NCBI GenBank assembly: GCA_015492495.1
Contig: WGEY01000095.1
Location: 1 to 38,760, forward strand
Reading direction: 5' to 3'
Length of the DNA: 38,760 nt
Source: Deltaproteobacteria bacterium
Lineage (GTDB): Bacteria; Desulfobacterota; GWC2-55-46; DRQE01
This document shows, one piece after another, positions 6,136-13,385 of this stretch (within the stretch, counting starts at the first letter, position 1; the number at the start of each line of letters is the position of its first letter). A model generated the notes under the pieces. That model was not told where the DNA came from. It searched no databases and saw only the letters and a list, made by a program, of their open reading frames with translations. Made by a program: the position numbers and the translations under genes.

Positions 6136-6963
6136 GTGAACGGAAATGTCGCTGCCACCCCGAACCGGACGGCAGGACGGGGAAGGCGCATCCTGCTTCC
6201 CTTCCCAGGAGGAGTCTGCGCAATCGTTGTTTTCATTTTGTTTTTTTCGATCGGCTCGGCCCGTGCCGCAGGCAGCAGGTTGGTCGTCGACGACTTCTCC
6301 GGTCCGGTTAAAGAAGACGGAATCCCTTACGGCTGGAAGACGCTCGAGTTCCCGAAGATACCGAGGCATACCAGGTATACGGTCGAGAGCGGGCCCGGTA
6401 ACCGCTTCTTGAAGGCCGAGAGCAGTGCATCGGCTTCGGCCCTCTACAAAGAGATAGATGTGGACCTGAGGGTGCATCCTGTATTAATATGGAGGGGGAG
6501 GGTCAGTGGAACTATAGAAGGCGGTGATGCCGGAAAGAGAGAGACCGATGATTACGCCGCAAGGGTGTACGTGGTATTTGAATACGATCCAAGAGACGCC
6601 GGGGTCGTTGAGCGCATAAAGTACCGGATCATTCAGGTGTTGTACGGAACGGCCCCTTCGAGGGCGATAAACTACATCTGGGCGAACAGGCTTGAAAAAG
6701 GGGGACATCTTCCCAACGCATATACCGCAAAGGCGATGATGGTCGCGGTGGAGAGTGGACCGGGGTTGAAGGGCAGGTGGATCTGGGAAGCCCGTAATGT
6801 CTACGAGGATTACAGGATGTTGTTCAAGGGCGAGCCACCCAAGGTGGTGGGGGTCGCCGTTATGACGGATACCGACAACACCGGGGCGAGCGCCGTTGCA
6901 TACTACGACGACATAGCCTTTACGAAACCAAAGGTGAACGGCGTATACGGTCAAAGACCTTAG
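6136..6963 (+). CDS. Exported DUF3047 protein
   Basis: A 275-residue protein with a basic N-terminus and a hydrophobic segment (about residues 25-42, VCAIVVFILFFSIGSARA), read as a signal peptide cleaved after SARAAG, placing it in the periplasm. The mature part matches the DUF3047 pattern: VVDDFSG near the start, GIPYGWKTLEF, LYKEIDVDLRVHPVLIWRGRV, then RVYVVFEYDP, INYIWAN, and the end VGVAVMTDTDNTGASAVAYYDDIAF. The fold is probably a beta-sandwich. The family has no established function. Start is GTG at 6136 with AGGGAGGG about 8 bases upstream. It stands alone between a terminator and the signalling pair; the next gene is 100 bases on. Confidence 0.85.
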   Translation: MNGNVAATPNRTAGRGRRILLPFPGGVCAIVVFILFFSIGSARAAGSRLVVDDFSGPVKEDGIPYGWKTLEFPKIPRHTRYTVESGPGNRFLKAESSASASALYKEIDVDLRVHPVLIWRGRVSGTIEGGDAGKRETDDYAARVYVVFEYDPRDAGVVERIKYRIIQVLYGTAPSRAINYIWANRLEKGGHLPNAYTAKAMMVAVESGPGLKGRWIWEARNVYEDYRMLFKGEPPKVVGVAVMTDTDNTGASAVAYYDDIAFTKPKVNGVYGQRP

Positions 6964-7063: not shown

Positions 7064-8680
7064 ATGGCAAAGATGGTAAAGCAAAAGACCCCCGAGAGGA
7101 TGATAAGGATGAAGGTGAGGGCGGATGCGTCGGCCCTTACCCCCAAGGAGATAGAGATCCTCCGGTGGGTGCAGGAGGGGAAGACGAACGAGGAGATAGG
7201 CAGGCTCCTCGGCAAGTCGCAGTGGACGGCCAAGAACCACCTCAAGAACATAATGAGGAAGCTGAACGTTAAGAGCCGTACCAAGGCTGTAAATCATGCA
7301 GTGGGCATAGGGCTCCTGCCTCCGCTTGCGCCTTACCTGCCCGAAGACAGCGGGCCGAAGATGACGGTTGGTATCGTCGGGTGCGGAAAGGGCGGGACGG
7401 CCGTTCTCGAGCTCTTCAAGGAGAACCCTTCGCTCAGCGTCGAGTGGGTGGCGGACAGGGATCCGTCCGCAAAGGGGTTGCTTCTTGCCAGGGAGCTGAA
7501 CATACCGACGGCAACCGATTTCAATGTCTTTCTCGACAAGAAGGTCGACGTCGTGATAAACCTCACCGGCTCCACAGAGGTCGCCGAGGTGCTCAGGAAA
7601 AAGATATCCTCCGACACCGAGCTCATGGGCGGTGTGTCGGCCAAGATCATGTGGCAGCTCTTCGAGGAGAGAAGAAAACGCGTTGAGGAGCGTGAAAGAA
7701 TCCTCAAGGAGCACGAGGCCCTCTATCACCTCGGCCTCGTCGTGGAGAGCATAGACAGTATAAAGGACGCGGGGTATGCGATAGTGGACTATGCGACCAA
7801 GCTGACCAATACGCCAGCCGGCTCGCTGGCCCTCTATGACGAGCAGAAAGACGACATGGTGCTCGTGGCGGCCAAGGGCTTCGGTACGGGGCTGAAGAAG
7901 ATAGTGCGCTGGGATATAAGGGAAGGCGGTCTTACCCACACCATACTCAACCACGAGGGACCGCTGTTTATCCAGGATATAAGGGAGTTTCCCAAGCCCA
8001 ACCCTGTGCTCCTCAAAGAGGGTGTAAGAACCCTCCTTGCCGCACCGCTTACGGTCGAGGGCAGGATAGTGGGGGTCCTGTATGTGAACGACTTCAAGAA
8101 GAGGAGGTTCCGTGCAGAGGACATCTCCCTTTTTTCACTCCTTACGATCTATGCCGGGCTTACCATAGAGAGGGTGAAGACTCTCGAGGAAACACGGCTT
8201 CTGAGCATAACCGACGGCCTCACCGGGTTGCACAACCAGCGCTACCTCATGGAGCAGATGCAGAAGGAGATCCAGAGGGCGGCACGGCACAAACATCCGC
8301 TTTCCATAATCATGTTCGACATAGACCGCTTCAAGGAATACAACGACACATACGGCCACCTCGAGGGCAACAAGGTGTTGAAGAACATAGCCAAGATACT
8401 TAAGAAGAACTCGAGGATCACCGACACGAACGGGCGGTTCGGAGGCGAGGAGTTCTGTATCATAATGCCCCAGATCAAGAAGGAGGGCGCCCTCACATTC
8501 GGCCGCAGGGTGCTCAACGAGATCGCCAAGTACCCCATGCCGAACAGAAAGGTTACCATAAGCGGCGGAATAGCGACCTACCCGGCGGACGGCAAGACCC
8601 ACATAGAGCTCCTGCGCAAGGCGGACGAATGCCTGTACAAGGCGAAGAGGAAGGGCAGGAACCGTATCCTGTGCAGGTAG
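7064..8680 (+). CDS. Diguanylate cyclase with LuxR-type HTH, Rossmann NAD-binding-like and GAF domains
   Basis: 538 residues, no membrane segment. Residues 26-85 are a LuxR/GerE HTH (LTPKEIEILRWVQEGKTNEE then IGRLLGKSQWTAKNHLKNIM). Residues 101-195 look like a Rossmann domain: GIVGCGKGG gives GxGxxG (G106, G108, G111), and VEWVADRD has the acidic residue after strand 2 typical of NAD(H) rather than NADP(H) binding. A short helical linker leads to a GAF domain (about 222-372). Residues 375-538 are GGDEF: ITDGLTGLHNQRYL, FDIDRFKEYNDTYGH (D419), and RFGGEEF (458-464), an intact active-site motif with RITD (451-454) in the inhibitory I-site position. It should make c-di-GMP and be feedback-inhibited. 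GGAG sits 7 bases before the ATG. The next gene is a degenerate paralog without the HTH. I do not recognise this architecture as a named family. Confidence 0.88.
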   Translation: MAKMVKQKTPERMIRMKVRADASALTPKEIEILRWVQEGKTNEEIGRLLGKSQWTAKNHLKNIMRKLNVKSRTKAVNHAVGIGLLPPLAPYLPEDSGPKMTVGIVGCGKGGTAVLELFKENPSLSVEWVADRDPSAKGLLLARELNIPTATDFNVFLDKKVDVVINLTGSTEVAEVLRKKISSDTELMGGVSAKIMWQLFEERRKRVEERERILKEHEALYHLGLVVESIDSIKDAGYAIVDYATKLTNTPAGSLALYDEQKDDMVLVAAKGFGTGLKKIVRWDIREGGLTHTILNHEGPLFIQDIREFPKPNPVLLKEGVRTLLAAPLTVEGRIVGVLYVNDFKKRRFRAEDISLFSLLTIYAGLTIERVKTLEETRLLSITDGLTGLHNQRYLMEQMQKEIQRAARHKHPLSIIMFDIDRFKEYNDTYGHLEGNKVLKNIAKILKKNSRITDTNGRFGGEEFCIIMPQIKKEGALTFGRRVLNEIAKYPMPNRKVTISGGIATYPADGKTHIELLRKADECLYKAKRKGRNRILCR

Positions 8681-8882: not shown

Positions 8883-8971
8883 TATAGCATCCGTGATTGT
8901 GCGGTATGCGGGACCAACCTGGAGATAGGAGGGGCCCCTGGAGTGTCGGGGTGGGCCGTGTGAAGCCTCGT

Positions 8972-13385
<4,414 letters not shown>

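Follow-up and report, generated by a model that had tools for sequence, protein, structure and literature searches.

What might a diguanylate cyclase do with half of a dehydrogenase? An open reading frame on the forward strand (7064–8680) of the window, by which we mean the whole 38,760-nucleotide stretch of deltaproteobacterial DNA analysed here, encodes a protein of 538 residues. An initial annotation had read part of it as the cofactor-binding half of a dehydrogenase, and had proposed that this segment serves as a sensory domain coupling the NAD redox state to c-di-GMP. We asked whether the segment is a Rossmann fold, whether it is under selection, where else it occurs and which ligand it may bind.

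Results

Architecture of the cyclase

Pfam domain matches give the order HTH-Rossmann-GAF-GGDEF, and the same order is found in related proteins. The N-terminal helix-turn-helix (HTH) is of the LuxR (GerE) type and occupies residues 24–79 (7133–7300; PF00196, E 4.4e-17, 61.9 bits against a cut-off of 23.5). The Rossmann module follows, about 93 residues long with best boundaries at residues 100–192 (7361–7639), and leads into a GAF domain (residues 236–370, 7769–8173; GAF_2, E 6.9e-15) and a GGDEF domain (residues 382–534, 8207–8665; PF00990, E 1.2e-46). The latter is a full domain in which both the active site, GGEEF (460–464), and the RxxD I-site, RITD (451–454), are intact, as expected for a diguanylate cyclase.

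Within the module we located the glycine-rich loop GIVGCGKGG (residues 103–111, 7370–7396), the segment VEWVADRDPSAKG (126–138) with Asp131 closing strand 2 (7454–7456), and VDVVINLTGS (161–170), whose last six residues, INLTGS (165–170, 7556–7573), mark the end of strand 4. The signature GGVSAKIMW (189–197) opens a continuous putative signalling helix, and together they span residues 189–229 (7628–7750). The motif positions of the initial annotation are correct on this reading frame, and NCBIfam has no full-length model for the 538-residue protein, in agreement with the remark that no named family with this domain order was known. A DUF3047 protein is encoded upstream of the cyclase (6136–6960); of the loci compared, the window and L075 alone have it.

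A Rossmann fold without its enzyme half

The isolated module scores above the curated Pfam cut-offs for DapB_N (E 2.1e-6, 28.3 bits against 25.6) and NAD_binding_3 (24.2 bits against 24), and 30 of 32 relatives match GFO_IDH_MocA at E <= 0.1. In the full-length reading frame these three families all appear between the HTH and the GAF domain below threshold, and full-length module proteins in general reach the cut-offs sometimes and barely. NCBIfam profile matches also support a Rossmann assignment. A profile built from 32 modules and searched against the PDB returned acetaldehyde dehydrogenases first (E 1.2e-7 to 4e-6), followed by Gfo/Idh/MocA proteins, GenD2, DapB and Rex (E 0.005).

The AlphaFold2 model of the module (mean pLDDT 89.8) shows alternating strands and helices, with strands at 2–6, 26–31, 64–67 and 87–90 of the module and helices between them. 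Foldseek placed acetaldehyde dehydrogenases and the GenD2 NAD complex at the top of its matches (probability 1.00, TMq about 0.6), and the GIVGCGKGG loop, the model and the fold search agree with a beta-alpha-beta unit carrying GxGxxG. The full-length model retains the module and shows a single helix, residues 190–229, leading into the GAF domain; its pTM of 0.40 leaves the inter-domain geometry uncertain and the arrangement of the domains unreliable. A chance or mis-called Rossmann fold is thus ruled out by the Pfam scores, the AlphaFold2 model and Foldseek.

By Pfam, the catalytic or substrate half of a dehydrogenase is absent from the reading frame, and what follows the module instead is a helix, GAF, GGDEF or kinase. 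Because the catalytic half is missing, a genuine dehydrogenase fused to a cyclase is also ruled out. The closest enzyme by both profile and fold is the NAD domain of acylating acetaldehyde dehydrogenases of the DmpF/BphJ type, which shares a DPxAxGLxxA segment after strand 2. The module differs from it by the lack of a catalytic half or second domain and by the GGxSAkxMW signature and coiled coil that follow strand 5. Likewise, DapB_N, NAD_binding_3 and GFO_IDH_MocA belong to the same Rossmann superfamily and match weakly or at the borderline, but the proteins in those families are enzymes that carry a substrate domain at the C-terminus, unlike the module proteins. These results confirm that the segment is a Rossmann fold without its enzyme half; both the fold and the missing partner domain had been read correctly from the sequence, and the structure prediction and fold search suggested at that stage returned no other fold.

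Conservation, selection and a tandem paralog

A tandem paralog without the HTH lies on the same strand at 8972–10438 (start codon uncertain, 8897–8972) and consists of a Rossmann module, a GAF domain and a degenerate GGDEF domain. Its module and helix (9089–9442) are 50% identical to the first module over 118 residues (E 7e-35). Compared domain by domain, the Rossmann part is the best kept between the two proteins (49%, against 42% for GAF and 41% for GGDEF). Within the family, orthologs show 51–71% identity in the Rossmann core, less than in the GAF domain (63–81%) and slightly less than in the GGDEF domain (61–76%). In a same-genus pair, dN/dS is 0.07 for the Rossmann region and 0.03 for GGDEF; between the window and its nearest ortholog the values are 0.14 and 0.15. 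The module is therefore clearly under purifying selection. The earlier view of a strongly conserved, selected segment holds for the paralog comparison and for the low dN/dS, with the qualification that in the orthologs the GAF domain is better preserved. The HTH region is much less conserved in some relatives (L020, L022 and L023).

The paralog GGDEF domain (9932–10363; Pfam E 4.6e-25) reads RIGDNRF at its lost active site, and so does not have the GG[DE]EF signature of a diguanylate cyclase, while its RxxD I-site is kept as RTTD. Among the loci compared, just two have such a paralog, those of the window and of genome G008, whose second gene (L015) has the same pattern, RQTD...MHDGEF. A dead cyclase site with a kept I-site suggests that both proteins are c-di-GMP receptors or cyclase partners. 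No riboswitch or other known RNA was matched by Rfam between the cyclase and the paralog.

The module is present in all nine genomes searched of the window's family and in 27 of 48 of its order, and the full domain order is retained in several families of that order and, beyond it, in a single further family of the phylum. The cyclase gene shares a conserved block with gyrB, ligA and a gene for an RNase H-like protein. A narrow pattern scan of genome contigs retrieved seven close relatives only; the named ones are uncultured deltaproteobacteria and one proteobacterium, all of them metagenome assemblies.

A promiscuous input domain

A profile search across the phylum found a copy of the module at E <= 1e-12 in 59 of 198 sampled genomes. 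We rely on this figure; a wider search gave 116 of 395 genomes, with an alignment that held one true Gfo/Idh/MocA enzyme (L151). Combining the 59-genome search with earlier ones, we classified 111 proteins: 64 histidine kinases (six of them with GGDEF), 22 diguanylate cyclases (12 with a recognisable HTH), two GGDEF-HD-GYP proteins, three sigma-54 activators, ten stand-alone modules, three truncated proteins and seven others. Inspected by eye, these seven comprise two kinase-like proteins with a weak ATPase domain, one with an MCP-like segment, one with PAS-like domains only, two with GAF-like repeats, and a true Gfo/Idh/MocA enzyme, a false positive. Pfam tallies over 87 proteins point the same way (HATPase_c 56, HisKA 48, GGDEF 19, Sigma54_activat 3).

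Outside the phylum, the clostridial species Acetoanaerobium noterae (Bacillota) has a protein in which the module is joined to an MCP signalling domain (Pfam; L165, 4001–4780). This member scores 87 bits, against at most 20 bits for three other Rossmann-type, dehydrogenase-like proteins of the window's own genome, a clear separation of the family from enzymes. In the window's phylum, a module with an MCP-type segment was seen by eye at L093 (1081–1764); both fusions are possibly soluble chemotaxis-type proteins. Viral contigs held no relative of the module, and plasmid records yielded only the 2.6-Mb Acetoanaerobium replicon and ordinary acetaldehyde dehydrogenases, so viral or plasmid carriage was rejected.

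Stand-alone module proteins of about 130–160 residues occur in most genomes of the window's family (L003, 1474–1872, 133 residues, on contig C43 of the window's genome; L016–L019, L058, L080 and L082), and those read end in a conserved GY. Five PAS histidine kinases (L134, L135, L137, L138 and L142) have tandem double modules at the N-terminus, the first copy shorter than the second in each.

The module, at or near the front of many signalling proteins, is thus a promiscuous and unnamed input-domain family; neither Pfam nor NCBIfam has a model dedicated to it. Its position in this diguanylate cyclase is that of an input module, as proposed, but it is not special to this cyclase: most copies are in histidine kinases. 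The search for fusions to other outputs, proposed with the initial annotation, was productive across kinases, GGDEF-HD-GYP proteins, sigma-54 activators, MCP-type proteins and stand-alone forms.

Of 19 module loci that we sampled, mostly kinases, at least 9 have an NtrC-type sigma-54 response regulator gene directly downstream, and with these adjoining regulators the module kinases look like working two-component systems. Rossmann-histidine kinases adjoin an NtrC-type regulator at L167, L170–L172, L178 and L180. Several of these loci also carry a peptidase of family M54 (archaemetzincin type), a GcvH-domain protein or both, possibly as a conserved operon.

The pocket and its candidate ligands

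Column counts across 114 informative modules show that several of the best conserved positions fall in the expected nucleotide site. G106 is kept in all 114 and G108 in 108, and residue 131 is acidic in 113 (D in 95, E in 18), as the initial annotation had noted for this protein. Other conserved columns are A136 (106), A142 (108), T168 (104), G138 (101), G169 (95) and W197 (84). From what is known of such families, a preserved nucleotide site is expected to show a glycine loop, an acidic residue and a strand-4 turn like these. An acidic residue after strand 2 is the usual mark of NAD(H) and argues against NADP; with D/E131 and the kept glycines, the pattern fits NAD(H) rather than NADP(H). We consider it probable that the module serves to sense cellular NAD(H) or a related nucleotide.

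The third glycine of GxGxxG is less uniform (position 111: G in 57 of the 114 modules, C in 51), and a cysteine there is unusual for NAD. The module also ends after strand 5, which leaves the nicotinamide side open unless a partner domain closes it. This cysteine and the short nicotinamide half leave room for another nucleotide or for a ligand-free role.

The first of these readings is that the pocket holds another adenine nucleotide or metabolite (CoA or acyl-CoA, ADP-ribose, AMP or NADP) and reports carbon or energy state instead of NADH/NAD+. The best sequence relatives, acylating acetaldehyde dehydrogenases, have a Rossmann site that also takes CoA; Pfam CoA_binding is matched by 3 of 94 members at E <= 0.001 and by 11 of 32 at E <= 0.1, and the AlphaFold2 model has a short nicotinamide half. 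On the other hand, the nearly invariant acidic residue speaks against NADP, and more members match DapB_N, NAD_binding_3 and GFO_IDH_MocA than CoA_binding. We regard this reading as rather unlikely.

About as unlikely, in our judgement, is a ligand-free scaffold, a pseudoenzyme module for dimerisation or partner docking, with sensing left to the GAF or PAS domains; in the window protein, that part might fall chiefly to the GAF domain. The variable glycine loops of some members (GGGxxC, GANKEG), the shortened first copy in each double-module kinase and the existence of stand-alone modules that could serve as partners are consistent with a scaffold. However, the top conserved columns map to the pocket (glycine loop, acidic residue and T-G of strand 4) and not to a surface patch, and one protein with the order module-GGDEF (L033) has no other recognised sensory domain.

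That a cysteine in or adjoining the glycine loop is the sensor (of thiol redox, NO or a metal), with the fold merely its holder, is very improbable: a loop cysteine is found in 66 of 114 modules, as GCGxGG in the window group and GGGxxC in many kinases, but at two different positions, and it is absent from the remaining modules, the stand-alone and HisKA_3 kinase groups included. In the window these positions are Cys107 (7382–7384) and that of the third glycine (7394–7396).

Discussion

Computation establishes the fold, the lost enzyme half, the conserved pocket, the selection and the fusion to many signalling outputs; for the mechanism, we lean modestly towards NAD(H) sensing, in which the NAD-binding half of a dehydrogenase has been reused as a cytoplasmic input whose binding of NAD(H) shifts a helix and changes cyclase output. 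The module probably derives from an enzyme of the acetaldehyde dehydrogenase, DapB, homoserine dehydrogenase or Gfo-Idh-MocA type, its NAD-binding half freed from the catalytic half. Judging from what is known of such families, NAD(H) would most likely be bound in the kept pocket that the glycine-rich loop makes with the acidic strand-2 residue. Binding or exchange of NAD+ and NADH would shift the C-terminal helix, which emerges from strand 5 at GGxSAkxMW; helix 190–229, acting as a coiled coil into the GAF and GGDEF domains, may then alter cyclase dimerisation and c-di-GMP output. We hypothesise that the NADH/NAD+ ratio is coupled to the cyclase in this way. The N-terminal HTH probably tethers the cyclase to DNA or adds a transcription-factor role, and the paralog, by family resemblance, may bind c-di-GMP.

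To our knowledge, direct NAD(H) sensing in bacteria is mainly known from Rex-type repressors. Rex senses the balance of NAD+ and NADH (PMC8836258). Like Rex, the window protein places a non-enzymatic Rossmann domain behind an HTH; the two also share the glycine loop and a regulatory role, and profile searches link them weakly (5zz5 at E 0.005; up to 3 of 94 modules are matched by NCBIfam Rex models). The window protein differs in that the reading frame has no match to the Rex winged helix, only to GerE and generic HTH/sigma-region-4 families in Pfam. The HTH here is of the LuxR type and is missing from most modules, the outputs are a cyclase, kinase, sigma-54 or MCP domain, and the Rossmann domain continues into the putative signalling helix instead of the Rex C-terminus. 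The module also resembles the PAS and GAF inputs of c-di-GMP and two-component proteins, as a small cytoplasmic unit joined by a helix to interchangeable outputs, and differs from them in fold. We see it as a variation on the Rex-like idea of Rossmann sensing, carried by a domain family that is promiscuous and has no name.

According to a 2022 review of the sensory domains of c-di-GMP proteins, many sensor domains are still unrecognised; neither "Rossmann" nor "dinucleotide-binding" appears in its main text (PMC8846402). We found no description of the module in openly accessible papers; subscription journals may hold one.

More tentatively, across one deltaproteobacterial phylum and in at least one species of the clostridia, this large, unnamed dehydrogenase-derived family might let histidine kinases, cyclases, sigma-54 activators and chemotaxis-type proteins sense the NAD(H) pool directly, much as PAS domains respond to different cues. 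If so, many two-component systems, cyclases and chemotaxis-type proteins would have immediate access to pyridine nucleotides or a related nucleotide, and an input would be assigned to kinases so far annotated by their PAS and kinase domains alone. With a Pfam-type model for the family, signalling proteins would be annotated differently in about 30% of the genomes sampled in the phylum.
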